IMG/VR virus record: IMGVR_UViG_3300007734_000544
Location: 1 to 28,330 of that record
Strand: one strand, 5' to 3'
Source: a virus
DNA length: 28,330 nucleotides
In this document: positions 7,205 to 25,999 of the stretch, piece after piece
Layout: each line of letters starts with the position of its first letter
How positions within the stretch are numbered: the stretch's first letter is position 1
Translations under genes and position numbers: made by a program
The notes under the pieces: generated by a model
Seen by the model: the letters and a program-made list of their open reading frames with translations, nothing else
Databases searched by the model: none
What the model was told of the DNA's origin: nothing

Positions 7205-8494
7205 ATGTTTTATATTGCAGAAACTGATGAACAGTTAAAAGAATTTTCAAATATAAAATACAACAAAATATTTGTCGAACTTGTACTTCACAATGATCAT
7301 ACTCACCCAGCGTTAAACGAATTGTCTTTACTGTACATCAAACCATTAAACGGCGATAAAGGCTACATCTTATGTCTTGACCATACTGAGACGCTTTTGT
7401 TAAACAAAACACCTATAACGCATTTACTCGCTGATTATGATGAAATATATGTTAGAAACAGAAAAACATTTATTTACTTTTTCCCATTAAACAATTTAAT
7501 AGACATATCTTTTAATGTACCTGAGTATGTTGAACCCTCAACTTCTGCTCATAATTTCTTTTATCAAAGACAAGGACACTTAACAAACATAAATACAATC
7601 ATACCAATAGTTAAACATTATGAAAAATGTGAACTAATATATGAAATAATAAAAAATTACTGTGTAAAGCCAGACAACAACAAATTTTTAAATAAACTAT
7701 CAACTGTATTTTTTTCAATTGAAAAAAACGGTTTAAAAATTGACAAATATGAATTCAATAAGCATTTTGAACCTAACAATGAAGCGTTTTTTATACACAA
7801 TAATACAGTCTACTCCAAGTATAATTTGTACACTACAACCAGACGGCCTTCCAATAGTTTTAATGGCATCAACTTTGCTGCGTTAAATAAAGACAATGGT
7901 AGTAGAAAGACATTTGTTCCTAAAAATGACTGCTTTATTGAAATGGATGTTAATGGAATGCATCCTAATATATTATGTATGTTAATTAATTATAAATTTA
8001 AAGAAAAAGATATTCATGAATCATTAGCAAAAATATATGGAGTAAGTCGAGAAGAAGGAAAAAAAATTACATTTAAACAATTATATGGTGGAATTTCTGA
8101 AGAATATAAAGATGTTGAATTTTTTCAATTAGTACAAAAATATATATCAAAAACTTGGAAGGAATTTAATGAATCAGGAAACATTACCTTACCTACATCA
8201 GGTCATTGTTTTAGAAAGGATAAATTAAAAGATATGAATCCTCAAAAATTAATAAATTATATAATACAATCAACTGAAACAACAACTAATATATTAATAT
8301 TATGGGAAGTTATTAAAAAAATGAAAAAATTTGAATCTGAAATAATATTGTATGTATATGATTCAATTTTAGTAGATGCTAAAAATAAAGAGATTAAAGA
8401 CATAATAAATATAGTTGAACAAGAATATGAAAAATTAGGATTTTATATTAATGTAAAAATTGGAAATAATTATAATGATTTGGTCTCTCCCTAA
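7205..8494 (+). CDS. Compact DNA polymerase, family A (Pol I palm/fingers)
   Basis: 429 residues. The second half carries the family A motifs in order: a TGR-like TTRRPSNSFNG (about 211), motif A FIEMDVNGMHPN with Asp248, the O-helix REEGKKITFKQLYGG with Arg282, Lys286, Phe290 and Tyr294 in canonical spacing, the Q-helix NYIIQSTETTTN (Asn351, Gln355), and motif C YVYDSILVD with Asp386. Both metal-binding aspartates are present, so it may be active. The usual HDE of motif C is YDS. The N-terminal 150 residues may be a worn 3'-5' exonuclease domain: no Asp-x-Glu pair is visible. Bacterial Pol I is about 930 residues, so this is a minimal form. The phage also has polymerase B at 27250. Codon use becomes more AT-rich after about base 7950. 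Confidence 0.8.
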   Translation: MFYIAETDEQLKEFSNIKYNKIFVELVLHNDHTHPALNELSLLYIKPLNGDKGYILCLDHTETLLLNKTPITHLLADYDEIYVRNRKTFIYFFPLNNLIDISFNVPEYVEPSTSAHNFFYQRQGHLTNINTIIPIVKHYEKCELIYEIIKNYCVKPDNNKFLNKLSTVFFSIEKNGLKIDKYEFNKHFEPNNEAFFIHNNTVYSKYNLYTTTRRPSNSFNGINFAALNKDNGSRKTFVPKNDCFIEMDVNGMHPNILCMLINYKFKEKDIHESLAKIYGVSREEGKKITFKQLYGGISEEYKDVEFFQLVQKYISKTWKEFNESGNITLPTSGHCFRKDKLKDMNPQKLINYIIQSTETTTNILILWEVIKKMKKFESEIILYVYDSILVDAKNKEIKDIINIVEQEYEKLGFYINVKIGNNYNDLVSP

Positions 8495-8523: not shown

Positions 8524-9207
8524 ATGAAAAAATGTGGAAAATGTTTAAAAGAACAAAATATTATAAATTTTAATAAAAAAACAAAAAGTAAAGATGGATA
8601 TGATAATATATGTAAATGTTGTCAATCAAATTATTCTAAGTTAAGATATATAAATGATAGAGAAAAAGTTTTAAACCAATGTAATAATTGGAGAAATAAA
8701 AATAAAACACAAGCTAATAAAATTTCATCTGATTATTATCATAAAAACAAAGAAAAATTAAATAAAATCCATAAAAAATATGTCGAAGATAATAAAGAAG
8801 ATAGAAATAAATACTGGAGAGAATACCAGAATGCTCGATGGATTAATGACCCACAGTATAAAATACAAAAAACATTAAGAAAACATATATATATTTATTT
8901 AAAAAACATGGATATTTCTAAAAATAAAAAAACATTTGATCTATTAGGATACACACCTCAAGATTATATAAATAAAATAGGAGAAGTACAACAAAATGAA
9001 CATATAGATCATAAAATTCCAATATCTTGGTTTAAAAATGATACTCCTATTAATTTAATATGGTCTTTAGATAATTTACAAAATATAAAAGCCGAAGAAA
9101 ATTGGAAGAAAAATAATCATTTTTCACATGAAATTTCTTTAAAATTTTATGAAAAAATAAAAGAATACATCAAACCAAAATATATAGATAAAATAAAATC
9201 AATTTAA
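8524..9207 (+). CDS. HNH homing endonuclease, free-standing
   Basis: 227 residues, lysine- and asparagine-rich. An N-terminal zinc finger is formed by Cys4/Cys7 and Cys30/Cys33 (CGKC and CKCC). A long basic helical region (about residues 45-110) could grip DNA. The nuclease core is near residues 159-199: EHIDHKIPISWF gives the HNH histidines, then LIWSLDNLQNIKAEENWKK and NNH. It sits between two phage genes with a 1-base gap to the next one and is markedly more AT-rich than flanking replication genes, as expected of a recent mobile insertion. It probably cuts a related phage allele in this neighbourhood. Confidence 0.85.
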   Translation: MKKCGKCLKEQNIINFNKKTKSKDGYDNICKCCQSNYSKLRYINDREKVLNQCNNWRNKNKTQANKISSDYYHKNKEKLNKIHKKYVEDNKEDRNKYWREYQNARWINDPQYKIQKTLRKHIYIYLKNMDISKNKKTFDLLGYTPQDYINKIGEVQQNEHIDHKIPISWFKNDTPINLIWSLDNLQNIKAEENWKKNNHFSHEISLKFYEKIKEYIKPKYIDKIKSI

Positions 9208-9208: not shown

Positions 9209-9661
9209 ATGAATATAAATTTTATTTCAACAGATACTTTCAATATGTATGATTATACTACGGAAACTGATTTTATGAACAACAGACTATTTGCTACATT
9301 TACACAGCAAAATGAAATAGAAGGACTGATAAATGAATTATCATCCACCTACAGTATAATGTACAAAAAAATGTTTGTTCTTTTCATTAAGAGTACAAAT
9401 GAATATGTTGTAACATACAATGTAGAGCAAGGCAACGTCAACACAATACCTGAAAATACTATATTAGTACATAGAAAAAAAGAATCAAACACTCTATACA
9501 CAATCAACGCATTGAACGATTTGATTAAAAAATTGAACAATGGCGAAATTGATCCAACCTATAAAATAGAATGGCAAAATTATAAAAACTGTGTTCTGTT
9601 AACTCAACAAGGAGAAGTAAAACAATTGAACACAAAAATTTACAAGATTGTAGATCTTTAA
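9209..9661 (+). CDS. Conserved-looking small protein, unknown function
   Basis: 150 residues with mixed alpha/beta character and no cofactor or catalytic motif. Notable stretches are YVVTYNVEQGNVNTIPENTI in the middle and TINALNDLIKKLNNGEIDPT near the C-terminus. Its codon use is ordinary, unlike the HNH gene just before it, so it probably was the direct downstream neighbour of the family A polymerase gene before the endonuclease arrived. A polymerase-linked role is possible but unsupported by sequence. Confidence 0.5.
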   Translation: MNINFISTDTFNMYDYTTETDFMNNRLFATFTQQNEIEGLINELSSTYSIMYKKMFVLFIKSTNEYVVTYNVEQGNVNTIPENTILVHRKKESNTLYTINALNDLIKKLNNGEIDPTYKIEWQNYKNCVLLTQQGEVKQLNTKIYKIVDL

Positions 9662-11006: not shown

Positions 11007-11885
11007 ATGGATTTAAACTCAATCAAAAGTAAGCTTAATGCGCTACAGTCGCAAGGTAAAAGCAAAGAAAAAGTTGACTACACCAAGTCACTATGGAAAC
11101 CAAAGTCAGAAGGTAAATTCCAAATCAGAATAGTACCGTCTATTTTAGACAAGAAAAATCCGTTCAAGGAAGTATTTGTACACTACGGAATTTCAAAATT
11201 TCCAATCTACGCATTAACAAATTGGGGAGAAAAAGATCCAATTGTAGAATTCGTAAAACAACTACGTCAAACATCTGACAAAGAAAATTGGAAGTTAAGT
11301 AAAAAATTAGAACCAAAAATGAGAGTATTTGCTCCTGTCATCGTTAGAGGTGAAGAAGACAAAGGCGTTCGTTTGTGGGAATTTGGTAAAGAAATTTACA
11401 TGCAACTGTTAGGCATTGCAGATGATGAAGACTATGGTGACTACACAGACATAAATGAAGGTCGTGATTTTACTTTAGAAACAGTAACTGGTGACATTGG
11501 TGGTCGTCAAGGCTTAAAATCATCTATTCGCATCAAACCTAAAACATCAGCATTAGGCACAGATAAAACACTTATCAAAATGTGGTTAGATGAACAACCA
11601 GATATTTTAGAACTTCAACGTAAACATGAATTTGATAGTTTAAAAGTAATTTTACAAAACTTCTTAAATCCAGAAGACACAGAAGGCACAGAAGACACAG
11701 TAAATAAAGAAGAAAGTAAAACACCAGCAAATGATTTACCTTGGAAAGACGAAGAAGAAGTTACTAAAACTAAAGTTACTTCCAAAAAAGAATCAAATTA
11801 CACATTAAAAACACCTTCAAAATCATCTAAAGCAGATAAATTTGACGCTTTATTTGAAGAAGAAGAAAATAATTCACCTTTTTAA
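11007..11885 (+). CDS. Single-stranded DNA-binding protein, T4 gp32-like
   Basis: 292 residues, close to T4 gp32 (301). The N-terminus (MDLNSIKSKLNALQSQGKSK) matches the short basic segment used for cooperative binding. The core (about residues 25-200) reads as the gp32 OB-fold region: LWKPKSEGKFQIRIVPSILD, PFKEVFVHYGISKFPIYALT and a VFAPVIVRGEEDKGVRLWEF stretch. The last 70 residues are a flexible acidic/Ser-Lys tail ending DALFEEEENNSPF, the part that contacts replication partners. It opens the replication block and has its own promoter, with UvsX 13 bases downstream. It coats single strands at forks and during recombination. Confidence 0.88.
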   Translation: MDLNSIKSKLNALQSQGKSKEKVDYTKSLWKPKSEGKFQIRIVPSILDKKNPFKEVFVHYGISKFPIYALTNWGEKDPIVEFVKQLRQTSDKENWKLSKKLEPKMRVFAPVIVRGEEDKGVRLWEFGKEIYMQLLGIADDEDYGDYTDINEGRDFTLETVTGDIGGRQGLKSSIRIKPKTSALGTDKTLIKMWLDEQPDILELQRKHEFDSLKVILQNFLNPEDTEGTEDTVNKEESKTPANDLPWKDEEEVTKTKVTSKKESNYTLKTPSKSSKADKFDALFEEEENNSPF

Positions 11886-11898: not shown

Positions 11899-12990
11899 AT
11901 GGCTAAAAAATCAAACGAGGAAGTTTCGTTAATGGAAGCAGTCTCTAAAGAGCTTAAAGGTAAATTTGATCTTAATAAATTTAAAGAAAAAAAGCTATTA
12001 AGTGGAAATGTAAAGTTTAAAGAACAAAAATGGATTCCTTTTTCAAAAGCAATGCAAGACGCTTTATCAATTCCAGGAATAGCTATGGGTCACATCAACA
12101 TAGTACGTGGTGGTAGCAACACAGGAAAAACCACCACGTCTATAGAGACTGTAGTATCTGCTCAAAAAATGGGTGTGTTACCAGTTTTAATGATTACAGA
12201 AATGAAACACAGTTGGGAACATTGGAAAATGATGGGATTTGAAATGAACGAAATTAAAGATGCAGAAGGAAAAACTGTAGACTATGATGGGTTTTTTATA
12301 TATAGAGACAGAGGAAAACTCAATTCAATCGAAGATGTAGCAGAATTTATGTTAGACATGTTAAATGAACAAGATAAAGGAAACTTACCATACGATTTAC
12401 TGTTCTTATGGGACTCAGTAGGTTCTATACCATGTCGATTAAGCATTGAACAAGGTAAAAACAACCCAATGTGGAATGCCGGAGCAATAGCTACTCAATT
12501 TGGAAATTTTATAAACCAAAGGGTTGTATTGTCAAGAAAAGAAGAAAGTAAATACACAAATACATTCTTAATTATAAATAAAACCGGAGTAGCACCAGCA
12601 GAAAATGTCTTTTCCCAACCTAGAATGACTAATAAAGGTGGAAACACATTTTTTTACGATTCATCAGTATGTTTAACTTTTGGTAATGTTACTAACAGTG
12701 GAACGTCAAAAATCAAAGCACAAAAAGATGGAAAAGATGTTGAATTTGCTTTAAGAACTAAAGTAGCATGTGATAAAAATCACGTGAATGGAATTACCAC
12801 TAAAAACACAGTAATAAGTACAGTACATGGTTTTATATCAGATGATCCTAAAGATATTACTAAATATAAGAAAGAACATTCACATGAGTGGGCTAATATT
12901 TTAGGAGAAGGAAATTATAAAACTATTGAAGACAACAGTGAGTGGAATGAAAAAGTAGATGTTTCTGACATTGTAGAATCTGAAGATTAG
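11899..12990 (+). CDS. uvsX: UvsX/RecA-like recombinase
   Basis: 363 residues (T4 UvsX is about 390). Walker A is GGSNTGKTT at residues 71-79; Walker B is YDLLFLWDSVGS with Asp172. Between them, LMITEMKHSWEHWKMMGF is typical of the phage RecA branch. Near residue 240 KGGNTFFYDSSVCLTF fits the L2 region. The C-terminus is acidic (KVDVSDIVESED). The protein forms filaments on SSB-coated single strands and drives strand exchange for recombination-dependent replication and repair. Its position directly after the gp32-like gene and two bases before the RNase H gene supports this. Confidence 0.93.
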   Translation: MAKKSNEEVSLMEAVSKELKGKFDLNKFKEKKLLSGNVKFKEQKWIPFSKAMQDALSIPGIAMGHINIVRGGSNTGKTTTSIETVVSAQKMGVLPVLMITEMKHSWEHWKMMGFEMNEIKDAEGKTVDYDGFFIYRDRGKLNSIEDVAEFMLDMLNEQDKGNLPYDLLFLWDSVGSIPCRLSIEQGKNNPMWNAGAIATQFGNFINQRVVLSRKEESKYTNTFLIINKTGVAPAENVFSQPRMTNKGGNTFFYDSSVCLTFGNVTNSGTSKIKAQKDGKDVEFALRTKVACDKNHVNGITTKNTVISTVHGFISDDPKDITKYKKEHSHEWANILGEGNYKTIEDNSEWNEKVDVSDIVESED

Positions 12991-12992: not shown

Positions 12993-14045
12993 ATGGACAA
13001 AGAAAATTTACTTAAACTTCTTAATGACATTAAGGAGGATGACATGCCGTCTTTAGACGAGGGAGAAAGAGTCCTGATTATAGATGGTTTAAATCTCTTT
13101 TTAAGGAATTTTGCAGTGTTAAACTACATCAACCCAGAAGGTACTCACATAGGAGGTTTAGGTGGTTTTTTACGTTCATTAGGTTCATTAGTTAAACAGT
13201 TAAAACCAACATCAATTTACATTGTATTCGATGGAGTAGGTTCTTCTATAAATAGGAAGAATTTACTTCCTGAATATAAATCAGGAAGAAATGTACTACG
13301 AGTTAACAAAACGTCTTTCTCTTCTCAAGAAAAAGAAAATGAATCTAAAACAAATCAAATTATTCATCTTATTCATTATTTACAATGTTTACCTATTAAA
13401 ATTTTATCATTAGATGGAGTTGAAGCAGATGACATTATAGCGTTTTTAAGTAAAGAACTAACCCAAAATAAAAAGAATAAAACATTCATAGTATCAGCAG
13501 ACAATGACTTTCTTCAACTAATAAATGAAAACATTACTATGTATAGATCTGTTGAGAAAGAATTTATTACACCTAAAATAGTAAAAGAAAAATATGGTGT
13601 TCATCCTTTTAATTTTCTCTTATATAAAACACTAATGGGAGACAGTTCTGATAAAGTAGGAGGAGTAAAAGGACTAGGAAAAGGAAAATTTGACAAGTTA
13701 TTTCCTGAAATGTTAGGAGAAAATAACTTAACATTAGATGACATTTATAAAATATGTGCTGAAAAATTTAAAGAACATGTTATATATTGTAGGGCATTAG
13801 AAAATTTTGACAACTTAAGAAAGGCTTATAAAATTATGGATTTAAGTAATCCTATGTTGGATGACCTAGAAAAGGAATATATATTAGATTATGTTAAAGA
13901 GTCTCCATATGAATTAAACATAGAAACGTTTCTTAAATTTTACCATAAAGATGGATTAGGAAATATATTAAAAAATGTAGACTACTGGATAAAAGACATT
14001 TGGAGTCCAATTAATAGATACAATAAAGCAAAAAATAAGTTATAA
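12993..14045 (+). CDS. rnh: RNase H / 5'-3' flap exonuclease (T4 Rnh-type)
   Basis: 350 residues with an N-terminal PIN-like FEN core. Metal-ligand motifs are in order: IIDGLN (Asp31), IVFDGVGS (Asp80), DGVEADD (Glu144, Asp146, Asp147), VSADNDFLQL (Asp170, Asp172) and the helix-hairpin-helix entry GDSSDKVGGVKGLG (Asp217, Asp220). It would remove RNA primers and flaps from lagging-strand fragments. T4 Rnh is about 305 residues; the extra length is an N-terminal lead of about 25 residues and a C-terminal helical extension. It is packed between UvsX and the helicase. I chose the ATG at 12993, two bases after the UvsX stop; Met18 downstream is an alternative start. Confidence 0.92.
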   Translation: MDKENLLKLLNDIKEDDMPSLDEGERVLIIDGLNLFLRNFAVLNYINPEGTHIGGLGGFLRSLGSLVKQLKPTSIYIVFDGVGSSINRKNLLPEYKSGRNVLRVNKTSFSSQEKENESKTNQIIHLIHYLQCLPIKILSLDGVEADDIIAFLSKELTQNKKNKTFIVSADNDFLQLINENITMYRSVEKEFITPKIVKEKYGVHPFNFLLYKTLMGDSSDKVGGVKGLGKGKFDKLFPEMLGENNLTLDDIYKICAEKFKEHVIYCRALENFDNLRKAYKIMDLSNPMLDDLEKEYILDYVKESPYELNIETFLKFYHKDGLGNILKNVDYWIKDIWSPINRYNKAKNKL

Positions 14046-14060: not shown

Positions 14061-15443
14061 ATGCCATCATTAAATTCTTTAGAGAACTATGGAATCAGTT
14101 TCCAAACAAAGGTTATATCAGCATTATTAACTGATAAACCCTTCTTACAAAACATTAATGATGTTTTAACAGAAGAATATTTCAACAATTCCTCACAAAA
14201 GTGGGTTATAAATGAAATATTAAAATACTATCAAAAGTTTCATTGTCCTCCAACAATGGACGTGTTAAAAGTAGAAATGAAAAAAGTTGAAAATGAAGTA
14301 CTACAACTTTCCATCAGAGAACAGTTAAAAGAAGCATATAGATCATCAGATGAAAGTGACTTAACATACATTAAGCAGGAATTTTCTAATTTTTGTAAAA
14401 ATCAACAATTAAAAAAAGCATTATTGAACTCAGTTGACTTATTAAAAGCAGGTGACTATGATTCTATTAGAATATTGGTTGACAGCGCTTTAAGATCAGG
14501 CCAAGATAAAAATATAGGCCATGAATACAATAAAGACACTGAATCACGCTATAGAGAAGAAGACAGAACACCAATTCCAACACCATGGAATAAATTTAAT
14601 GATGTACTTCAGGGTGGCTTAGGTGAAGGTGATTTTGGCTTAATTTTTGGCAACCCAGGAGGAGGAAAATCATGGAGTTTAATTGCTATAGGAGCACATG
14701 CTGTAAAATGTGGTTTTAATGTTATACATTACACTTTAGAATTAGGTGAAGGATACATTGGAAGACGATATGATGCATTTTTTACAGAAATACCTGTTGA
14801 CAAGTTAAAACACAGTAAAGAAAAAGTAGGAGTAGTAACATCTGATTTACCAGGAAATTTAATTATTAAAGAATATCCAATGGGTAAGGCATCATTATCT
14901 ACAATAGAAAGTCACATTAAAAAATGCATTGACTTAGACTTTAAACCAGATTTAATTGTTATTGATTATGTTGATCTTTTATCATCAAAAAGAACAAATC
15001 GTGAACGTAAAGATGAAATTGATGATATTTATATGAGTACAAAAGGACTAGCTCGTGAATTAAAATTACCTATATGGAGTGTATCACAAGTCAATAGAGC
15101 AGGTGCCAAAGACAGTATTATTGAAGGAGATAAAGCAGCAGGATCATATGATAAAATAATGATAGCAGATTTTGCAATATCTTTATCAAGACAAAAGAAA
15201 GATAAAATTAACGGAACAGGTCGCTTTCACATTATGAAAAACAGATATGGAGCAGATGGTATGACATTTAACGCTAAAATAGATACATCTACAGGACATA
15301 TGGAAATTACAGGTGAACTTGGAGAAGACGAAGAGGAAGAATTAATAAGCAATGATAAAGTAAAATCATCTAATTATGGTTCAAACATAGATAGTTTTGA
15401 TCGTGAATATTTAAGCAAACAATTTTTTGAATTAAGTAAATAA
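14061..15443 (+). CDS. Replicative DNA helicase, DnaB/gp41-like
   Basis: 460 residues (T4 gp41 is 475). An N-terminal helical domain (about residues 10-150) is followed by a RecA-type ATPase: Walker A FGNPGGGKSW (Gly197-Ser204), a Glu in the HYTLELGEGYIGRR element, Walker B DLIVIDYVDLL (near residue 300), and an arginine-rich WSVSQVNRAGAKDS motif corresponding to DnaB sensor regions. The C-terminus is acidic (GEDEEEEL). It forms a hexameric ring that unwinds the fork 5' to 3' on the lagging strand and would act with the SSB and polymerase B here. No primase or clamp gene is seen in this window. Confidence 0.92.
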   Translation: MPSLNSLENYGISFQTKVISALLTDKPFLQNINDVLTEEYFNNSSQKWVINEILKYYQKFHCPPTMDVLKVEMKKVENEVLQLSIREQLKEAYRSSDESDLTYIKQEFSNFCKNQQLKKALLNSVDLLKAGDYDSIRILVDSALRSGQDKNIGHEYNKDTESRYREEDRTPIPTPWNKFNDVLQGGLGEGDFGLIFGNPGGGKSWSLIAIGAHAVKCGFNVIHYTLELGEGYIGRRYDAFFTEIPVDKLKHSKEKVGVVTSDLPGNLIIKEYPMGKASLSTIESHIKKCIDLDFKPDLIVIDYVDLLSSKRTNRERKDEIDDIYMSTKGLARELKLPIWSVSQVNRAGAKDSIIEGDKAAGSYDKIMIADFAISLSRQKKDKINGTGRFHIMKNRYGADGMTFNAKIDTSTGHMEITGELGEDEEEELISNDKVKSSNYGSNIDSFDREYLSKQFFELSK

Positions 15444-16133: not shown

Positions 16134-17993
16134 ATGCTAAATAAAGAATCACAGATTTTATCAGAAGTCACTACCCATTTAAAATATGCTAAATATTCTC
16201 CTGAATTAAAAAGAAGAGAGACATGGGGAGAATTAGTAGACAGAAACAGAAGTATGCATCTAAAAAAATTTCCTGAGTTAGAAAAGGAAATAAAAGAGGC
16301 ATATCAATATGTTTATGATAAAAAAATATTGCCTTCAATGCGTAGTTTACAATTTGCAGGTAAACCGATTGAAATAAATAATTCAAGAATATTTAACTGT
16401 TCTTACTTACCAATAGATGATCATAGATCATTTTCTGAAATAATGTTTTTACTACTTTCAGGATGTGGAGTAGGATATTCAGTACAAACCCACCATGTAG
16501 AAAATTTACCTGATATTAGAAAACCACTAAAATTTAAAAGATATTTAGTTGGAGATAGTATTGAAGGATGGGCGGATGCTGTTAGAATGTTGATTAAGTC
16601 TTATTTTGGACTTATAAGTTCTTGTCCTAAATTTGACTTTAGAGACATTAGACCTAAAGGAGCACATTTAATTACTGTAGGAGGAAAAGCACCAGGACAT
16701 GAACCGTTAAAAATAGCTTTAGTACATGTTAAAGCAATATTAGACAGAAAAAATGACGGAGAAAAATTAACATCTGTTGAATGCCATGATATGATTTGTC
16801 ATTTAGCTGATGCTGTATTGTCAGGAGGAATCAGAAGAGCAGCTTTAATTGCTTTATTTGACTTAAATGATGAAGATATGTTAACATGTAAGTTTGGAAA
16901 TTGGTGGGAAATAAATCCACAAAGAGGAAGAGCAAATAACTCAGCAGTGTTACTTCGTAATAAAATAGACAAAGAAACATTCCTTAACTTATGGAAAAAA
17001 ATTGAAGCATCAAACAGTGGAGAACCAGGATTTATTTTTACAAACGATAAAGACGCAGGTACAAACCCATGTGCTGAAATTAACTTAAAAGCTAATCAAT
17101 TTTGTAATTTAACAGAAATTAATGCTTCTGACATTGACTCACAAGAAGAATTTAACGTAAGATCAAAAGCAGCCGCATTTATAGGCACACTACAAGCATC
17201 ATACACTGACTTTCACTACTTAAGAGATGTTTGGAAAAAAACAACAGAAAAAGAAGCATTACTAGGAATAGGAATGACAGGTATAGCGTCAGGAAATGTA
17301 CTAAAACTTAACATGAAAGAAGCAGCTAAAATAGCTTGTGAAGAAAATGAAAGAGTAGCAAATATTATAGGAATAAATAAAGCAGCTCGTGTAACTACAG
17401 TTAAACCATCAGGCACAACATCTTTAGTATTAGGAACATCAAGTGGCATTCATGCTTGGCATAGTGAATATTATATTCGTAGAATTCGTTTAGGAAAAAA
17501 TGAAGCACTGTACACATATTTGTCAATATTTCATCCTGAATTATTAGAAGATGATTTTTTTAAACCAACAATTCAATCCATTGTAAAAATACCTCAACAA
17601 GCTCCAGAAGGAGCCATCACAAGAAAAAATGAATCAGCAATTAACTTATTGGAAAGAATAAAGTTAATAAACCAAAAATGGATAAAACCAGGTTATAGAA
17701 AAGGTGCAAACCAACATAACGTTTCAGCTACTGTTACAATCAAAAATGATGAGTGGGATGATATTGGAGATTGGGTATTTGAAAATAGAGAATACTTTAC
17801 AGCATTGTCTTTCTTACCATTTTCAGATCACACATACACTCAAGCACCGTTTGAAGACATTACAAAAGAACAATTTGAAGAAATGGTAAAACAATTACAT
17901 GAAATTGACTTAAGTAAAGTTGTTGAATTAGATGACAATACATCATTAATGGAAAGCGCAGCTTGTCAAGGTGGAAGCTGTGAAGTTACATAA
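16134..17993 (+). CDS. nrdJ: Ribonucleotide reductase, class II (adenosylcobalamin-dependent)
   Basis: 619 residues. It converts ribonucleotides to deoxyribonucleotides using a B12-derived radical. All key cysteines are present: Cys89 in FNCSYLPI, Cys313 in NPCAEINL with Glu315, Cys324 in FCNLTEI, and the C-terminal pair Cys611/Cys616 in ACQGGSCEV. The spacings 313-324 and 611-616 equal those of the monomeric Lactobacillus enzyme (408-419, 731-736; about 739 residues), so this is a shortened RTPR-type enzyme. No small-subunit (NrdB) gene is adjacent, as expected for class II. No B12 riboswitch can fit: only six bases separate it from the upstream gene. The thioredoxin at 22477 could re-reduce its C-terminal pair. 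Confidence 0.9.
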   Translation: MLNKESQILSEVTTHLKYAKYSPELKRRETWGELVDRNRSMHLKKFPELEKEIKEAYQYVYDKKILPSMRSLQFAGKPIEINNSRIFNCSYLPIDDHRSFSEIMFLLLSGCGVGYSVQTHHVENLPDIRKPLKFKRYLVGDSIEGWADAVRMLIKSYFGLISSCPKFDFRDIRPKGAHLITVGGKAPGHEPLKIALVHVKAILDRKNDGEKLTSVECHDMICHLADAVLSGGIRRAALIALFDLNDEDMLTCKFGNWWEINPQRGRANNSAVLLRNKIDKETFLNLWKKIEASNSGEPGFIFTNDKDAGTNPCAEINLKANQFCNLTEINASDIDSQEEFNVRSKAAAFIGTLQASYTDFHYLRDVWKKTTEKEALLGIGMTGIASGNVLKLNMKEAAKIACEENERVANIIGINKAARVTTVKPSGTTSLVLGTSSGIHAWHSEYYIRRIRLGKNEALYTYLSIFHPELLEDDFFKPTIQSIVKIPQQAPEGAITRKNESAINLLERIKLINQKWIKPGYRKGANQHNVSATVTIKNDEWDDIGDWVFENREYFTALSFLPFSDHTYTQAPFEDITKEQFEEMVKQLHEIDLSKVVELDDNTSLMESAACQGGSCEVT

Positions 17994-18013
17994 TATATGC
18001 TTGAAAAAATTAG

Positions 18014-18045
18014 TTCGGCTTTCGAAATTCTTTAACATATATTTA
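18014..18045 (+). promoter_or_regulatory. Bacteroidota-type promoter (-33/-7)
   Basis: TTCG at 18014-18017 (TTCGGCTTT), a 20-base spacer, TATATTTA at 18038-18045 followed by AGTAAAC. Expected start near 18049, 19 bases before the ATG at 18068. It separates the reductase gene from the next transcription unit. Confidence 0.65.
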
Positions 18046-18067
18046 AGTAAACAAATAAATAAAAAAT

Positions 18068-18331
18068 ATGCCTTTAAAACCACAATCAATTCGTAAGGGA
18101 GCTAGTATTACTGTAAATGGTAGTAAAGCAGAAAAAGAAGAAGTAATTGAATTAAGTAAAAGTTGGACTGATCAACAGTTATTGTTTTTTAAAAAACTAC
18201 TTCAACAGGGAGGTTCAACATCATTTAATGGAATATCCTTTAGGGTTACTTTAAAAGATAAAATAGTTACATCTGCAGGTTTAAAAGACACAGGTATAAT
18301 AGTATATCCGGGATTAGATTCAAAATATTAA
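18068..18331 (+). CDS. Small unknown protein
   Basis: 87 residues. No recognised domain. It has a basic start (MPLKPQSIRKGASITVNG), a central helix (EVIELSKSWTDQQLLFFKKL) and a short beta-like segment (GISFRVTLKDKIVTSAG). It is first in a transcription unit behind a strong promoter and is followed one base later by the membrane protein gene, so the two are likely made together. Confidence 0.5.
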   Translation: MPLKPQSIRKGASITVNGSKAEKEEVIELSKSWTDQQLLFFKKLLQQGGSTSFNGISFRVTLKDKIVTSAGLKDTGIIVYPGLDSKY

Positions 18332-18332
18332 A

Positions 18333-19304
18333 ATGAAAAAATATTTATTTCCAACGCTGATAGCATTTTCAGCATTAGCCGTAAGTGCAACTGCTGCTTT
18401 TTACTCAATAACCGGTTTGTCAAAATTATTTATAGGGGCTAGTTTTGCAGTTATAATAATGGCTGCATCTTTAGAATTAGCTAAATTAGTAATTGCATCT
18501 TATTTATATCAATATTGGTCAAAAACAAATGTTTTACTAAAAATATACTTAACAATAGCTGTACTTGTGTTAATTTTAATTACATCTGCTGGCATATATG
18601 GTTTTTTAAGTTCAGCATATGAACAAACGGCTTCGAAAAATATAGTAGTAGAAAAACAAATTGCTGCTTTAGAAAATAAAAAAGTAAGATACTTAGACAC
18701 TAAAGAATCTTATTCTAAAGAAAAAATAGAAACAACAAAAAATACATCAGAATTAAGACAAGCCTTATCAATAGGAAGTATTACTCAATATAAAGATAAA
18801 GAAACAGGTCAAATTCTTAACATAGCAAATAGTGGCAACAGAAAAGCATTTGAAAAACAACTGGAAAACACCCTTAAAAAAGACTCAATGCTTGATGTTA
18901 AAATAAACACAGTAAATGATAGTATATTTAGTTTAGAGTCTCAAATACTTACTTCTCAATCTAAAGCAGAAATCTCGGGTGAATTAGGTCCTCTAAAATA
19001 CATAAGTAAACTATTGAATGTTCCTATGGACAAAATCATAAATTGGTTTATTTTAGTTATAATATTTGTATTTGATCCATTAGCTGTAAGTCTAATTATA
19101 GCGGCTAACAATGCTTTTAATAAAATTAAATTACCCCAACAGTTAGCAATATACAATGAAAAACCAATTGTTGAAGTGCCTATTTCTCAAAGTGTACAAA
19201 TACCACAAATTCCAACATATCTTGAATCTTTAAAAAGTATTTATCAATATGTTCCACCTGTTTTTAAAAAGAAAAAAGATGATGATGATGTAAAAACATA
19301 CTAG
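18333..19304 (+). CDS. Membrane protein: three helices, long coiled coil, one C-terminal helix
   Basis: 323 residues. Three hydrophobic segments lie in the first 100 residues (about 5-22, 30-52, 68-90; for example IYLTIAVLVLILITSAGIYG). A charged, coiled-coil-like region follows from about residue 100 to 215 (VEKQIAALENKKVRYLDTKE onward). A fourth segment is near residue 232-255 (WFILVIIFVFDPLAVSLIIA), and the tail is basic/acidic (KKKKDDDDVKTY). With four spans the coiled coil and both termini would lie on defined sides of the inner membrane. No transporter or enzyme signature is visible. A membrane anchor, superinfection or lysis-timing role is open. Confidence 0.55.
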   Translation: MKKYLFPTLIAFSALAVSATAAFYSITGLSKLFIGASFAVIIMAASLELAKLVIASYLYQYWSKTNVLLKIYLTIAVLVLILITSAGIYGFLSSAYEQTASKNIVVEKQIAALENKKVRYLDTKESYSKEKIETTKNTSELRQALSIGSITQYKDKETGQILNIANSGNRKAFEKQLENTLKKDSMLDVKINTVNDSIFSLESQILTSQSKAEISGELGPLKYISKLLNVPMDKIINWFILVIIFVFDPLAVSLIIAANNAFNKIKLPQQLAIYNEKPIVEVPISQSVQIPQIPTYLESLKSIYQYVPPVFKKKKDDDDVKTY

Positions 19305-19332
19305 GCTTATAGAATTTAATAATTTATATTTA
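19301..19332 (+). promoter_or_regulatory. Bacteroidota-type promoter (-33/-7) for the transglycosylase-like gene
   Basis: CTAG at 19301-19304 (CTAGGCTTA), a 20-base spacer, TATATTTA at 19325-19332 followed by AAATAAA. The -33 box overlaps the TAG stop of the preceding gene. Expected start near 19336, eight bases before the ATG. Confidence 0.65.
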
Positions 19333-19343
19333 AAATAAAAGTT

Positions 19344-20156
19344 ATGATTAAAATATCCCATGAAGTTCCTTTATGTTTGTTAAAAGAAAGTTTACTCTTT
19401 AATGATGTAGATTACTGTTTGCCTCATTTAATGGATGAAAATGAAGAATATAAACAATTTTTTATTAAAGCAAAAGCAGATGGTCGTTACATAATGATGG
19501 ATAACAGTTTACATGAATTAGGACAACCATACAGTAAAGAAAGATTAATATACTGGCTGCAAACACTTCAACCAAATGAATTTTTTGTTCCTGATTATTG
19601 GGAAAATAAAACAGACTCAATAGTCTCTGCTAGAGAATGGTATCAATATCAAAATAATTTACCTAACACGTTGTTTATAGCAGTTGTTCAAGCAAAAGAA
19701 ATACAAGACGCTGTAGAATCTTATCAAATATATAAAGATTTAGGATATAAAAAAATAGCATTTAGTTATGGAGCATCATATTATAATGATGTATGTCCCC
19801 ATCCAAATAAAAATTTAGGTAAAGCATTAGGTCGTATTCAAGTAATTACTAAACTACATGATTGGGGAATAATAAACAAAACTGATTCAATACATTTATT
19901 AGGTTGTGCTTTACCTCAAGAGTTTGGATGGTATAAAGATATGCCTTTTATTACATCTATAGACACTTCAAATCCAGTTATGGCTACATTAGATGGAAAA
20001 GAATATGAAGGATGTGGTTTAATAGATAAACCTAAATCATGTATGAATGATAATTTTTACATTGATAAAAAAAATATTAATTTAAATTTATTAAGTAGAA
20101 ATCTAAGATTATTTAGAATAATAAATGGATTTAAAGTTTGGAATTTAGAAAAATAA
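19344..20156 (+). CDS. DpdA/TGT-like 7-deazaguanine DNA transglycosylase
   Basis: 270 residues with TIM-barrel character. Landmarks fit the tRNA-guanine transglycosylase superfamily: MMDNSLHELG (Asp53, where TGTs have the base-binding DSGG Asp), FVPDYW, IAVVQAKE, YKKIAFSYG, IHLLGCALPQEF (the LMGxG-like strand) and FITSIDTSNPVMATLDG, whose Asp207 is at the nucleophile position. It is shorter than tRNA-acting TGTs (about 375) and lacks a visible zinc-binding Cys cluster, as in phage DpdA proteins that put preQ0 or relatives into DNA in exchange for guanine. The neighbours QueC, QueD, QueE and FolE make the substrate. Assignment to a particular DpdA clade is not possible by eye; a tRNA target is the main alternative. 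Confidence 0.72.
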   Translation: MIKISHEVPLCLLKESLLFNDVDYCLPHLMDENEEYKQFFIKAKADGRYIMMDNSLHELGQPYSKERLIYWLQTLQPNEFFVPDYWENKTDSIVSAREWYQYQNNLPNTLFIAVVQAKEIQDAVESYQIYKDLGYKKIAFSYGASYYNDVCPHPNKNLGKALGRIQVITKLHDWGIINKTDSIHLLGCALPQEFGWYKDMPFITSIDTSNPVMATLDGKEYEGCGLIDKPKSCMNDNFYIDKKNINLNLLSRNLRLFRIINGFKVWNLEK

Positions 20157-20168
20157 TTTATATATTTA
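20137..20168 (+). promoter_or_regulatory. Bacteroidota-type promoter (-33/-7) inside the end of the transglycosylase gene
   Basis: TTTG at 20137-20140 (TTTGGAATT), a 20-base spacer, TATATTTA at 20161-20168 followed by ATTAAAT. The -33 box lies within the last codons of the upstream gene. Expected start near 20172, 17 bases before the ATG at 20189. Confidence 0.65.
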
Positions 20169-20188
20169 ATTAAATAAAAAATAAAAAT

Positions 20189-20434
20189 ATGGAAGAAAAA
20201 AACTTTGTATCATTGTTTGACTTTTTAGGAAGATCAGCAGGAAAAGATTTAGGTAAAGAAGTTTACACTAAAGCTAAAGAATTAAAAAAATCTATACAAC
20301 AAAAAAATATTGTTACTAGTAAATACTCAGGTAAGGTAATGATGTATGAACATGATTTTTTAGTAGAATATTTTAAACCAAAAGAATCTCCTGTTTCTTT
20401 AAAAGTAGAGGAAGATGATGATTTACCATTTTAA
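20189..20434 (+). CDS. Small protein with SSB-type acidic C-terminal tail
   Basis: 81 residues. The first 60 are helical and basic (FVSLFDFLGRSAGKDLGKEV, then KAKELKKSIQQK) and show no OB fold. The C-terminus is VEEDDDLPF. This matches the tip of bacterial SSB proteins (DDDIPF in E. coli; DDLPF-like endings in Bacteroidota), through which SSB recruits repair and replication enzymes. The protein may therefore dock onto SSB-binding host proteins or mimic SSB. It lies between the transglycosylase and QueC genes, with its own promoter and a 10-base gap to queC. Function is unknown. Confidence 0.6.
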   Translation: MEEKNFVSLFDFLGRSAGKDLGKEVYTKAKELKKSIQQKNIVTSKYSGKVMMYEHDFLVEYFKPKESPVSLKVEEDDDLPF

Positions 20435-20444
20435 AAAATAAAAT

Positions 20445-21389
20445 ATGAAACAAGCCGTATTAAGTTTAAGTGGAGGAATGGATAGTAGTACATTGTTACT
20501 TCACTTACTAGCTAATGATTACGAAATAACATGTCTAAGTTTTGACTATGGACAAAAACATAAAGTAGAATTAGAACGAGCAGTTGAATTAGTAAAATAC
20601 ATTAATAGTAAAGCTGATGAAACTAAATATAAATCAGAAACATCAGAAGTTATTATGCATCATTTTCCTAAAATTAAACATCAAATTATCAAATTAGATG
20701 GTTTAAGTCAACTGCTAGTAAGTGGATTAGTTGATAATAATTCTATGGAACTCAAAACAGGACATTATGCACATGAAAATGCTTTAACTACTGTAGTTCC
20801 AAACAGAAATGCTATATTTGCATCAATTACTTATGCTGTTGCATTATCTATTGCTAAAAAAACAGGAGAATCATGTAAAATAGCATTAGGAACTCACATG
20901 GGTGATTTTGATAATAAAAAACAAAGCGGAATATATCCAGATTGTTCAGAAGAATTTAAAATTGCTCTTGAACATGCATTTAAAATAGGTAATTGGGATT
21001 CTGAAAAAGTAGATTATTTTGCTCCTTATAATATTACTGATAAAACAGGAGTGTTAAAAGACGGAATTAAATGTTGTGAAAAATTAGGTTTAGACTATAA
21101 AGAAATTTATAAACGTACTAATACTAGTTATACTCCTATATTTGTTAAAGATGAAGAAAAAACAAAATTATTAGGACTAACAGAATCTACTCCAGGAATA
21201 GGAGTATGGTACAGTGATTACAAATCAGGTGCTAGTATTGAACGAATTATTAGTTTTATTATTCTAGGTTTGGAAGATCCAATTCAATATGCTGAAGAAG
21301 ATGGAACATTAGTGTCTTGGGATTTTGTAAAAAACTATGCTATTAAAATAGAAGAAGAATTTACTGAAAAAAAATTCGATTTTCAATAG
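20445..21389 (+). CDS. queC: QueC-like 7-cyano-7-deazaguanine (preQ0) synthase
   Basis: 314 residues. QueC turns 7-carboxy-7-deazaguanine, ammonia and ATP into preQ0. The PP-loop is SLSGGMDSST (residues 7-16), followed by SFDYGQKHKVE, VVPNRNAIFASIT, ALGTHMGD and YPDCSEEF (Cys167), all diagnostic. Two departures stand out. The C-terminal zinc site (a WSCY block and a CxxC pair) is missing; only Cys210-Cys211 lie nearby, and the region reads YKRTNTSYTP instead. The protein also runs about 90 residues beyond the usual 220-230, without a recognised domain. It follows the SSB-tail gene by 10 bases. A GIY-YIG endonuclease gene separates it from the rest of the pathway. Confidence 0.87.
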   Translation: MKQAVLSLSGGMDSSTLLLHLLANDYEITCLSFDYGQKHKVELERAVELVKYINSKADETKYKSETSEVIMHHFPKIKHQIIKLDGLSQLLVSGLVDNNSMELKTGHYAHENALTTVVPNRNAIFASITYAVALSIAKKTGESCKIALGTHMGDFDNKKQSGIYPDCSEEFKIALEHAFKIGNWDSEKVDYFAPYNITDKTGVLKDGIKCCEKLGLDYKEIYKRTNTSYTPIFVKDEEKTKLLGLTESTPGIGVWYSDYKSGASIERIISFIILGLEDPIQYAEEDGTLVSWDFVKNYAIKIEEEFTEKKFDFQ

Positions 21390-21395
21390 AATTTT

Positions 21396-21408
21396 CATAT
21401 TTATAATC
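21396..21408 (+). promoter_or_regulatory. Class 2 promoter-like motif abutting the GIY-YIG start
   Basis: CATATTTATAATC runs into the ATG at 21409, as at 9660 and 6450. The predicted start is near 21407. No -33 box is found at the 20-base spacing. Confidence 0.4.
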
Positions 21409-22341
21409 ATGATACATTATGTTTATAAAATTACAAATTTAAAAAATCAAAGATATTATATAGGCTCTAGAACATTTTCTATACCTGAAAAAGATGAATA
21501 TATGGGGTCTTCAAAAGTAATGAATAATCTTTATAATATTATAGGTAAGGATAATTTTAGAAAAGAAATTTTATTTAAATTTAAAACTCGAAAAGAGACC
21601 AATATTAAAGAACACGAATTAATTTGTTTTGGATTAGAAAATGAATCTGATCTAATATATAATCTTAGAAAATCCGGTTATAATATTGACAATAACATAA
21701 ATATATTTAATAAAAGAAATGATATTTGGGGAGACTTTTACAATGAAATAAGAAATAAATATTCAGACGGGATAAGACCAAATCAATTATGTAAAATATA
21801 TAAATGTGATAGAGGAACTATTGATTCTGTTATTAAGGATTTAATAATAAATAATAGATGGAGTGACGCATGGAAATTTGAACAAGAAATTATAAATAAT
21901 TATAATAATAATTATTCTAGAAAATACTTAGCTAAAAAATACAAATGTGATATAGGGACTATTAAAACAATATTATTGAAAAATAATATAAAAGTTCGTT
22001 CTATGAAAGAACAAATAGAACTTAATAAGATAAATAATATCCCTACTAATAAAAAGAAAACAGTAGATTTATTTTTATTAAAAAAACTATATTCTACTCA
22101 GAATTTATCTTTAAAAGAAACTGCAAAAAAATTAAATATAGGGATAGATGCCTTAAAAAGAATATTATTAGAAAACAATATTCCTATTAAATCATATAAA
22201 TGGGCAAATAAACAACCTAGACATAAAGCATGGAAATTAAGAGAGGAAATAAAAAAAGATTTAAAAAATATGTTAAAAAAAGATGTATTAAAAAAATATA
22301 ATATTAAAGATTATTCAACTTTAAATAAAATCATTAAATAA
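21409..22341 (+). CDS. GIY-YIG homing endonuclease with repeated DNA-binding helices
   Basis: 310 residues. The nuclease domain occupies the first 95: YVYKITN and YYIGSRT form the GIY-YIG core with Arg21, and KEHELICFG holds the metal-binding Glu. The rest holds three helix-turn-helix-like units of similar build, RPNQLCKIYKCDRGTIDSVI, SRKYLAKKYKCDIGTIKTIL and SLKETAKKLNIGIDALKRIL, plus a partial fourth near the end (KKDVLKKYNIKDYSTLNKII). Such arrays read the target site. Very AT-rich codon use and insertion between queC and thioredoxin fit a mobile gene. Confidence 0.88.
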   Translation: MIHYVYKITNLKNQRYYIGSRTFSIPEKDEYMGSSKVMNNLYNIIGKDNFRKEILFKFKTRKETNIKEHELICFGLENESDLIYNLRKSGYNIDNNINIFNKRNDIWGDFYNEIRNKYSDGIRPNQLCKIYKCDRGTIDSVIKDLIINNRWSDAWKFEQEIINNYNNNYSRKYLAKKYKCDIGTIKTILLKNNIKVRSMKEQIELNKINNIPTNKKKTVDLFLLKKLYSTQNLSLKETAKKLNIGIDALKRILLENNIPIKSYKWANKQPRHKAWKLREEIKKDLKNMLKKDVLKKYNIKDYSTLNKIIK

Positions 22342-22363
22342 ATCTAGTTCTGCTATAAGTGAA

Positions 22364-22431
22364 TACTGTAATGGGAAAAAGAAAAACAGCATATAAATAC
22401 ATTTGGAAATTCTAAAGCTAGGATTACAGTA
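22364..22431 (+). repeat. Nine-base inverted repeat overlapping a promoter
   Basis: TACTGTAAT at 22364-22372 and its exact reverse complement ATTACAGTA at 22423-22431, 50 bases apart. The right arm falls in the spacer of the promoter at 22418-22449. It could be an operator or an RNA stem; chance is possible in such AT-rich DNA. Confidence 0.35.
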
Positions 22432-22449
22432 AAATATTACTTATATTTA
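22418..22449 (+). promoter_or_regulatory. Bacteroidota-type promoter (-33/-7) for the thioredoxin operon
   Basis: CTAG at 22418-22421 (CTAGGATTA), a 20-base spacer, TATATTTA at 22442-22449 followed by AAATAAA. Expected start near 22453, 24 bases before the ATG at 22477. Confidence 0.6.
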
Positions 22450-22476
22450 AAATAAAAACCAAATAAAAAACAAAAA

Positions 22477-22722
22477 ATGAAACAAGTACTTTACTTTACA
22501 GCACAATGGTGTTCCGTATGTCAAGATATGACTCCAATTGTAGAACATTTAAAAAAATCAATACCTATAGAAAAAATAGACACAGATTATGATGTTTCTT
22601 ACACAGAAAAATATAATGTAAAATCTATTCCAACAGTTATTGTTTTAGAAAATGGAAAAGAAATTAAAAGACACACAGGAAAATTAAACAATAACCAATT
22701 AAATACATTTATTAATGGCTGA
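22477..22722 (+). CDS. Small thioredoxin
   Basis: 81 residues in a minimal thioredoxin fold. The active site is QWCSVCQ (Cys12, Cys15) and the cis-proline loop is SIPT (Pro52). YFTAQ before the active site and VIVLENGKEI after the cis-Pro are standard strands. It has no signal peptide, so it is cytoplasmic. The probable partner is the class II ribonucleotide reductase at 16134, whose C-terminal cysteine pair needs a dithiol donor; this is an inference. It overlaps the next gene by eight bases. Confidence 0.88.
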   Translation: MKQVLYFTAQWCSVCQDMTPIVEHLKKSIPIEKIDTDYDVSYTEKYNVKSIPTVIVLENGKEIKRHTGKLNNNQLNTFING

Positions 22723-22996
22723 TTTTTCTAAACAATACTGTGAAAAATATATGTCTGGACTACCAGGTAACTTTGACATTATTGAAGTGTTTAATAAATT
22801 AAAAGAACATTCATCTGTTGATTTAATTTGTGAAGGATATGGTTTTGTATCTATTGGAAAAGATCAAGAACAATCTGAACCAATATTGTTATTTAGTTTT
22901 AGAATGGCTATTCAAGAAGGATACTGGAATGAACCATTACCAGAAAATTTAAACATAGATGATTATGTTTGGATTAATTATAATAAATTAAAATAA
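22715..22996 (+). CDS. Small acidic unknown protein
   Basis: 93 residues with no recognised domain. It includes CEKYMSGLPGNFDIIEVFNK, a strand-rich centre (VDLICEGYGFVSIGKD) and a Trp/Tyr-rich end (GYWNEPLPENLNIDDYVWIN). Its start lies inside the end of the thioredoxin gene (eight-base overlap), so the two are translationally coupled. It probably belongs to the same functional unit as thioredoxin or the preQ0 genes downstream. Confidence 0.5.
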   Translation: MADFSKQYCEKYMSGLPGNFDIIEVFNKLKEHSSVDLICEGYGFVSIGKDQEQSEPILLFSFRMAIQEGYWNEPLPENLNIDDYVWINYNKLK

Positions 22997-23001
22997 AAAT
23001 T

Positions 23002-23172
23002 ATGAATAAAGAAACAAAACACCCAAATGCTAAAAAACATTTACAATTATCTTTTGCTAAATCTTTAATCAGAATTTTAGCTTGTGGAGCTGGAATGTTT
23101 GGATTATATGATGTAGCGTTTATAGGATTAATTTTAGCAGAAATAGTAGGAATAAAAGAAGAACTAGTATGA
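23002..23172 (+). CDS. 56-residue single-span membrane protein coupled to queD
   Basis: A short gene. The N-terminal 20 residues are basic (MNKETKHPNAKKHLQLSFAK); a hydrophobic segment follows (LIRILACGAGMFGLYDVAFI, continuing GLILAEIVG), then an acidic end (IKEELV). Its stop overlaps the queD start (ATGA at 23169-23172), which supports it being real and translated with QueD. Role unknown; the length of the hydrophobic stretch allows one membrane span or a re-entrant hairpin. Confidence 0.6.
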   Translation: MNKETKHPNAKKHLQLSFAKSLIRILACGAGMFGLYDVAFIGLILAEIVGIKEELV

Positions 23173-23636
23173 ATAAATTTCAATCAACAAAACTATTTGA
23201 TGGATACAGCACTTGCTTTCGTCAATGGAAAGCAGAAGATACTCATTGTAAATTTTTACATGGTTATGGTATTTCATTTAGAGTATGGTTTGAAGGTGAA
23301 TTAGACGAACGCAATTGGGTATGGGACTTTGGAGGCATGAAACGTGCTAAAGGTACTATTGGAGGAATGAATCCTAAAGTATGGATGGATCATATGTTTG
23401 ATCACACTACAATTATAGCAGAAGATGATCCACAAATTGAATTTTTTAAAGTTATACATTCTAAAGGAATGATTCAACTAAGAATTATACCTGCTACTGG
23501 AGCAGAACAATTTTCTAAGTATATCTTTGAAAAGTTAAATGTCTTTGTAAAAGAGGAAACAGAAAATAGAGTAAAAGTAACTCAAGTAGAATTCATGGAA
23601 CATAGTAAAAATACAGCAATTTATAAAGGAAATTAA
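23169..23636 (+). CDS. queD: QueD-like 6-carboxytetrahydropterin synthase
   Basis: 155 residues. QueD makes 6-carboxy-tetrahydropterin from dihydroneopterin triphosphate, the second preQ0 step. The layout fits: catalytic Cys27 with His31 in DTHCKFLHGYG, VWDFGGMK, FDHTTIIAEDDP with the Asp78-His79 pair, and TGAEQFSKYIF with the late Glu. In the E. coli enzyme zinc is held by His16, His31 and His33; here position 16 is Cys (STCFRQW) and position 33 is Tyr (HGY instead of HGH). So one ligand is lost or replaced. I have the impression that other phage QueD-like proteins share this pattern, but cannot check it. It is coupled to the upstream membrane peptide by ATGA. Confidence 0.8.
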   Translation: MNKFQSTKLFDGYSTCFRQWKAEDTHCKFLHGYGISFRVWFEGELDERNWVWDFGGMKRAKGTIGGMNPKVWMDHMFDHTTIIAEDDPQIEFFKVIHSKGMIQLRIIPATGAEQFSKYIFEKLNVFVKEETENRVKVTQVEFMEHSKNTAIYKGN

Positions 23637-23638
23637 TT

Positions 23639-23695
23639 ATGTGGACATCAACAACAACTTTCGGAGACGTAAAATTTAACTATATATTAAAATGA
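23639..23695 (+). CDS. Possible 18-residue coupling peptide
   Basis: MWTSTTTFGDVKFNYILK, read between queD and the 106-residue gene. It starts two bases after the queD stop and its TGA overlaps the ATG of the next gene (23692), continuing the ATGA coupling used in this cluster. Too short to judge by composition; it may be a leader reading frame or chance. Confidence 0.3.
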   Translation: MWTSTTTFGDVKFNYILK

Positions 23696-24012
23696 ATGAA
23701 ACTCTCTTCAATAAAGATTTTAATAAGAGAACAGTTAAATTTACTGAAGAAATAAATCCATACTTTAAAAGAAACTACATTCATTCTTTAGACAAAGAAC
23801 TTACCAACAACATAAAGAATATGTTAAAATCAGTTGATAGTGGGGATATTAAATTAGCTTTAGGCATATTGAATCATTGTAACTTAGATGATAAGCAAAC
23901 GTTAGAGAATGTAAAAATGATTATAGAAGAAACAGAATGTTTCCTATGTTTTGATGTACTAGACTCAGGAAATGAAACAACATATTTAAATTTTACAAGT
24001 GCAAAATTATGA
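23692..24012 (+). CDS. Small unknown protein coupled to queE
   Basis: 106 residues, mainly helical, with no known motif. It contains HSLDKELTNNIKNMLKSVDS and LALGILNHCNLDDKQTLENV, and a CFLCFD stretch whose CxxC might bind metal or be accidental. Its TGA overlaps the queE start (ATGA, 24009-24012), so translation is linked. A weak promoter-like pair (TTCG at 23660-23663, TATATTAA at 23683-23690, spacer 19) lies just ahead, too close to the ATG for a leader. A helper for QueE is conceivable on position alone. Confidence 0.5.
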   Translation: MNETLFNKDFNKRTVKFTEEINPYFKRNYIHSLDKELTNNIKNMLKSVDSGDIKLALGILNHCNLDDKQTLENVKMIIEETECFLCFDVLDSGNETTYLNFTSAKL

Positions 24013-24881: not shown

Positions 24882-24883
24882 GA

Positions 24884-24915
24884 TTTGGCTTACAAAATCT
24901 ATCTTTATATATTTA
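24884..24915 (+). promoter_or_regulatory. Bacteroidota-type promoter (-33/-7) for the 142-residue gene and folE
   Basis: TTTG at 24884-24887 (TTTGGCTTA), a 20-base spacer, TATATTTA at 24908-24915 followed by AATAAAA. It is one of the best matches in the window. Expected start near 24919, 11 bases before the ATG at 24930. Confidence 0.7.
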
Positions 24916-24929
24916 AATAAAAAAATAAT

Positions 24930-25977: not shown

Positions 25978-25982
25978 TTTAT

Positions 25983-25996
25983 GATATTTATCATAA
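25983..25996 (+). promoter_or_regulatory. Class 2 promoter-like motif, palindromic version
   Basis: GATATTTATCATAA lies within TTTATGATATTTATCATAAA, an exact palindrome at 25978-25997. The predicted start is near 25994, six bases before the ATG at 26000. The symmetry could equally bind a dimeric regulator. Confidence 0.4.
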
Positions 25997-25999
25997 AAC

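Follow-up and report, generated by a model that had tools for sequence, protein, structure and literature searches.

Why would a phage that encodes a family B DNA polymerase with its own exonuclease domain also keep a compact polymerase of family A? The question is raised by a 28,330-nucleotide stretch of viral DNA (IMG/VR record IMGVR_UViG_3300007734_000544, hereafter the window), which carries genes for both enzymes. Phages seldom keep two DNA polymerases: in the survey of Yutin et al. 2024 (Virol J 21:200, PMC11348598), just 2 out of 563 polymerase-encoding subtrees had two different polymerase families in one genome. One group named there, divPolA1, includes gp001 of Flavobacterium phage immuto. 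It was reported from 14 genomes, 155-190 kb in size, each with a regular PolA, PolB or PolC as well, and was described as having a truncated thumb, a dead exonuclease (catalytic Asp replaced) and replication genes downstream; its polymerase activity was concluded to be most likely retained (PMC11348598). The window gene is a divPolA1 member, and so is not new in kind. It is homologous to immuto gp001 over its full length (38% identity, E = 2e-97), and has a PolB beside it, a truncated thumb, a decayed exonuclease domain and replication genes downstream. New here are an extension of the range of the family, an invariant histidine in the active site, the fixed length of the bridge in place of the thumb, the finding of purifying selection, counts of linkage to a flap endonuclease (FEN), the persistence of the gene beside either PolA or PolB and a test of the link to modified guanine. 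The words "histidine", "steric" and "flap" are absent from the main text of PMC11348598, where the invariant His, the FEN linkage and gap filling go unmentioned. The features of the window that bear on the argument are collected in Table 1.

Table 1. Features of the window, with coordinates, strand and the basis of each assignment.
Feature	Coordinates	Strand	Basis or remark
divPolA1, compact family A DNA polymerase, 429 aa	7205-8494	+	Pfam; AlphaFold; Klenow TM (query) 0.79
N-terminal domain, modelled as a decayed 3'-5' exonuclease (DEDD fold), aa 1-164	7205-7696	+	Own model and PDB matches
Short bridge at the place of the Pol I thumb, aa 172-204 (IEKNGLKID to VYSKYN)	7718-7816	+	Length count
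Motif A, EMDVNGMHPNI (aa 246-256)	7940-7972	+	Catalytic D248; His253 where E. coli has the Glu710 steric gate
O-helix, aa 282-295	8048-8089	+	K286, F290, Y294, G295; K-x3-F-x3-YG
Motif C, LYVYDSILVD (aa 382-391)	8348-8377	+	Catalytic D386; YD[S/A] in place of HDE
HNH / endonuclease VII-like gene	8524-9207	+	PHROG_1035, E = 6e-13; follows divPolA1, ahead of the next operon gene
Conserved 150-aa protein, function unassigned	9209-9661	+	Next operon gene, 47/51 loci
gp32-type single-strand DNA-binding protein	11007-11885	+	Pfam gp32, E = 6e-12; 51/51 loci
UvsX/RecA-type recombinase	11899-12990	+	PHROG_97, E = 6e-18; 50/51 loci
5'-3' exonuclease / flap endonuclease (FEN), Pol I N-domain homologue, proposed partner	12993-14045	+	Pfam 5_3_exonuc_N, E = 4e-34; 51/51 loci
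DnaB-type replicative helicase	14061-15443	+	PHROG_19, E = 1.7e-76; 51/51 loci
DpdA homologue	19344-20156		37% identity to immuto DpdA; best PHROG family phrog_19058, "unknown function"
Family B DNA polymerase start (exonuclease domain), cut by the window end	27250-28330	+	Pfam DNA_pol_B_exo1, E = 1.1e-18

The gene has an ATG start and an uninterrupted frame, and its product is a family A DNA polymerase, an assignment well above chance. The match of the window protein to Pfam DNA_pol_A (PF00476) scores 32.0 bits (E = 8.6e-8) against a curated cut-off of 34.3, which the immuto homologue exceeds at 42.7 bits, and the PHROG_17 DNA polymerase family matches the protein as well (E = 2.4e-8). A profile of the divPolA1 family matches Klenow at E = 6.5e-4, and profile-profile comparison with 13 PolAs, a set rich in immuto-type PolA, gives a probability of 96.6 and E = 5.7e-10 at 20% identity. 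The exonuclease-like part of divPolA1 lies outside this last alignment, so its identity rests on structure. An AlphaFold model of the window protein, for which an alignment of 53 relatives served as input, has a pLDDT of 94 and a pTM of 0.91, and its top matches in the PDB are DNA polymerase I only (E about 1e-17), in line with the family A palm expected in the original prediction. In the structure search Klenow superposes on the model with a TM of 0.79 (query length), a value that requires the N-terminal part to superpose too, since palm and fingers make up just 63% of the query. The model has the Pol I-type palm/fingers fold by which we recognize family A, and template-directed DNA synthesis is the predicted activity of divPolA1.

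Other identities were considered and rejected. An RNA polymerase was ruled out because the 50 top-ranking PDB or viral structure matches of the model include no such enzyme. Motif A (DVNGMHPN) might be read as a family B motif of the DFTSLYPS kind, but the K-to-YG spacing of the O-helix matches family A, and Pol I was all that the fold search returned. Origin as a recent copy of the phage's own long PolA is unsupported, the two aligning at only 20% identity in the profile-profile comparison and divPolA1 being present in PolB phages too.

Modelled alone, residues 1-164 give a pLDDT of 88.5, and all PDB matches of this model are DEDD exonucleases or Pol I exonuclease domains (RNase D, Rrp6, NrnC, Pol I exo; best E = 2.3e-5). 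By this modelling a DEDD/DnaQ-type exonuclease fold in decayed form makes up the N-terminus, as had been suspected. The observation that no exonuclease catalytic pair is visible also held: neither the DTE motif nor the ExoII Asp was found at the matching columns of the family alignment. Paired by eye, those columns place V24/L26 (or E25/V27, with a one-residue shift) at ExoI and F89 at ExoII, with E143 as the ExoIII acid. divPolA1 is very probably non-proofreading, and the description of a second, compact family A enzyme of this kind beside PolB is borne out by both its fold and the decay of its exonuclease. From the family alignment, the thumb appears to be absent and replaced by a bridge of fixed length, in agreement with the truncated thumb of Yutin et al.: residues 180-204 form a stretch of 25 residues in 159 of 165 members, and the same two landmarks are ~110 residues apart in Klenow.

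Residues of divPolA1 were paired with those of E. coli Pol I through the profile alignments (family versus Klenow and family versus the 13 PolAs). The catalytic aspartates are kept, D248 (E. coli D705) in 165/165 relatives and D386 (D882) in 160/160, as are R214 (R668; 165/165), K286 (K758) and F290 (F762; each 164/164), Y294 (Y766; 163/164), G295 (164/164), N351 (N845; 163/164) and Q355 (Q849; 164/164). Other positions have changed. At the E710 position all 165 relatives have His253; a tyrosine, Y385, occupies the H881 position in 160/160; residue 387, at the E883 position, is Ala in 94 and Ser in 66 of 160; and the R754 column holds Tyr in 144 and Arg in only 3 of 165, the window protein itself having Arg. 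E710, R754 and H881 are all invariant in the 13 reference PolAs. A Glu gate, an O-helix Arg and an HD in motif C are typical, not strictly defining, features of family A, and divPolA1 as a family lacks them. The original prediction, in which all major palm and fingers motifs fit into 429 residues with exact O-helix spacing, is therefore correct for D248, K286, F290, Y294, G295, D386 and the K-x3-F-x3-YG spacing; it does not extend to the gate, which is His, to motif C, which reads YDS, or to the Arg of the window protein, which is not a family trait. Within the O-helix, K-x3-F-x3-YG alone is invariant. With the R754 and Glu710 positions lost and His881 replaced by Tyr, catalysis could be weak or unusual.

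The family is large and under constraint. In IMG/VR a profile scan gave 540 candidate relatives, the best 80 of which were listed, and a second scan with immuto gp001 as the query returned 312, which may overlap with the 540; the family alignment holds 165 relatives, a lower bound on family size. Members reach down to 25-27% identity, the farthest being Microcystis phage Mel-JY01 (27%) and the uncultured 484-kb phage LR756508. Across 777 pairs in the immuto clade the median dN/dS is 0.076, with 0.062 for palm/fingers and 0.106 for the exonuclease-like part, and between the window gene and its relative on contig L005 dN is 0.011 and dS 0.155 over codons 1-238. divPolA1 is under purifying selection in both parts, so the dead exonuclease domain is still constrained, as expected for a scaffold. 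The L005 gene is itself a mosaic: when L005:10001-11137 is set against window positions 7205-8341, codons 1-240 are 95-100% identical in DNA (one block 78%) and identity then falls to 30-63%. The drop sits just before motif A and the contig ends inside the gene; either recombination within the gene or a chimera at the contig end may account for it.

The family B polymerase begins ~19 kb from divPolA1, and only its exonuclease part lies in the window. It was completed from contig L168, which is 98.9-99.3% identical in DNA over 17598-28330 and extends the PolB frame through motif A (DFTSLYPS), K-x3-NAMYG and DTDS; the separate proofreading family B enzyme that had been reported is real. divPolA1 is carried by 18 of 20 large records (the two without it, of 105 kb and 124 kb, are possibly fragments), and each of the 18 has a second polymerase: PolB in 11, a long PolA in 7 and never both. 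Mapped onto the divPolA1 tree, the PolA label of the partner changes once, on a topology in which the two longest branches are weakly placed; seven of the PolA-labelled rows were picked via their PolA. The presence of a full-size polymerase of either family in 18/18 records indicates that the role of divPolA1 is independent of the main enzyme's family and is not that of the main replicase, a role we consider ruled out. The missing thumb, the invariant His and retention whatever the family of the main polymerase are stronger oddities than the compactness that first drew attention to the gene. In LR756508.1 (260623-266900), family B polymerase matches are spread over two separate reading frames of 1022 and 625 aa, which may point to an intein, an intron or a split gene.

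The neighbourhood of divPolA1 was compared over 51 loci with at least 9 kb of downstream sequence. The order divPolA1, gp32, UvsX, FEN, DnaB is constant in all of them (UvsX in 50), and FEN lies 2.3-4.8 kb downstream of divPolA1 on the same strand. FEN is also present in 21/21 large records. In the window an HNH gene directly follows divPolA1; elsewhere such a gene is found at this place in just two loci (L012 and L022), and it is probably a mobile insertion and possibly a homing endonuclease. The conserved 150-residue protein encoded next has no PHROG match and is a candidate polymerase accessory factor.

Three functions had been suggested for the second polymerase: gap filling, lesion bypass and incorporation across modified guanine. 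Gap filling is the best supported of these, because FEN, a homologue of the Pol I N-domain, is in the same operon in 51/51 loci and co-occurs with divPolA1 in 21/21 records. Our preferred reading, held tentatively and at a little under an even chance, is that divPolA1 and FEN together form a split Pol I in which divPolA1 is the gap filler. divPolA1 would keep its dead exonuclease domain as a scaffold and, with no thumb, reduced fingers and an intact two-aspartate site, would extend a primer in short bursts, without proofreading and with low processivity. The FEN of the operon would strip RNA primers and flaps, and divPolA1 would fill the short gaps left at Okazaki junctions and at UvsX/gp32 recombination intermediates; bulk replication would fall, in this phage, to the family B enzyme. 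The observations themselves establish the family, the fold, the conservation of the catalytic residues, purifying selection, the operon and the existence of a separate main polymerase; activity, low processivity, gap filling and the FEN partnership are what we infer from them. Against the split Pol I reading, operon position is no proof of partnership: a helicase, a recombinase and a single-strand binding protein are encoded there too, so a role at the fork or in recombination fits equally. Moreover, in T4-like phages PolB fills gaps by itself, and a Pol I is present in the host, which leaves the need for divPolA1 less than obvious.

The same gene order bears on a recombination polymerase, which we judge unlikely. 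Such an enzyme would extend the invading 3' end in UvsX/gp32 D-loops, initiating recombination-dependent replication, and then hand over to the main polymerase, its adjacency to FEN being incidental. In nearly all loci divPolA1 and FEN are indeed separated by the gp32 and UvsX genes, and the window phage encodes gp32 and UvsX along with a DnaB helicase, but nothing favours this role over primer removal, and FEN is conserved as much as UvsX.

The changed gate suggests a primer-handling polymerase, like eukaryotic Pol alpha, that would extend primase products or add ribonucleotides to them, an explanation we find rather improbable. His253, present in every relative, replaces a Glu found in 13/13 PolAs, and in the Pol I of E. 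coli and Bst this Glu, E710, is the steric gate that excludes the 2'-OH of ribonucleotides, its change to Ala admitting rNTPs (PMC7200780, PMC13228545). The thumbless form would also suit short synthesis. However, the bulk of His could make it a gate too, like the Tyr that family B enzymes have at the matching position, and F290, whose equivalent is a helper in sugar selection, is kept. Immuto has an ordinary DnaG-type primase (gp091), so primer synthesis is covered; with that gene annotated, and with weak zinc-ribbon matches in immuto and four other large records, primase activity was ruled out as the main role of divPolA1. The fuller proposal, that a thumbless, His-gated divPolA1 has altered sugar selectivity and is a Pol alpha counterpart that extends RNA primers or mixes in rNTPs before handing over to PolA or PolB, is improbable in our estimate.

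A translesion or modified-base polymerase, copying past 7-deazaguanine or damaged bases at which the family B enzyme stalls, is very unlikely. The window phage encodes FolE, QueD, QueE, QueC and a DpdA homologue, QueC is found in 17/21 and DpdA in 19/21 divPolA1 records, and the absence of proofreading and of a thumb would be compatible with bypass. However, searches of the whole 190-kb Mel-JY01 record and of LR756508 (484 kb) gave no QueC or DpdA match, yet in both phages divPolA1 is present in its usual operon. The polymerase is therefore not bound to the modification, and where the two occur together elsewhere this reflects common descent. None of the inserts or loops of theta/nu-type family A enzymes was identified in divPolA1. 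As a general role, incorporation across modified guanine is not supported, given these two phages. Two immuto-like genomes (G002 and G003, loci L129 and L146) have no QueC match and just a very divergent DpdA-like match (29% identity), the modification there having possibly changed or being supplied by the host. Another DpdA homologue (G025:C1:47665-48462) has one in-frame TAA, and in the window the gene directly after queC (21409-22341) matches a GIY-YIG (SegE-like) endonuclease and a helix-turn-helix.

A non-catalytic protein, a structural or regulatory replisome part that merely keeps the fold, is highly doubtful: E710 and H881 have changed to His and Tyr, R754 to Tyr, and the thumb is lost, but both Asp residues, the O-helix Lys, Phe and Tyr and the equivalents of R668, N845 and Q849 are kept down to 25-27% identity, and a scaffold would have no such need.

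Being kept while the large polymerase swaps family marks divPolA1 as a fixed part of the replisome, and its presence across hundreds of relatives, irrespective of the main polymerase in use, suggests a separate job such as gap filling. The invariant His and the lost thumb give clear predictions, for rNTP use and for processivity respectively. Immuto on Flavobacterium sp. LMO8 is a cultured host-phage pair (the paper of the isolation group, PMC7077304, does not mention immuto) in which genetic tests would show whether phages split the job of Pol I between two genes.

In kind, the window member is essentially like the published divPolA1 proteins; its particulars are a PolB partner and the HNH gene inserted after it. 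Beyond divPolA1 and divPolA2 we found no thumbless or His-gated family A enzyme in the literature. divPolA2, from barbaviruses, is likewise a divergent, thumbless family A enzyme beside PolB, and is set apart by its description in PMC11348598, which gives it an unrelated N-terminal globular domain, variable neighbourhoods and perhaps RNA polymerase activity. The full-length PolA of immuto (gp199, 777 aa) belongs to family A like divPolA1 and occurs in the same phage, but it has an active-looking exonuclease (DTETTGL) and normal motifs, and takes the place of PolB as the main polymerase in its clade. With bacterial Pol I and its Klenow fragment, divPolA1 shares the layout of palm and fingers with a DEDD exonuclease fold, the catalytic Asp pair and the equivalents of K758, F762, Y766, R668, N845 and Q849, and a FEN homologue is encoded nearby. 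It differs from Pol I in having no thumb, a dead exonuclease site, His for E710, loss of R754 and YD[S/A] for HDE, and in that its FEN is a separate protein.
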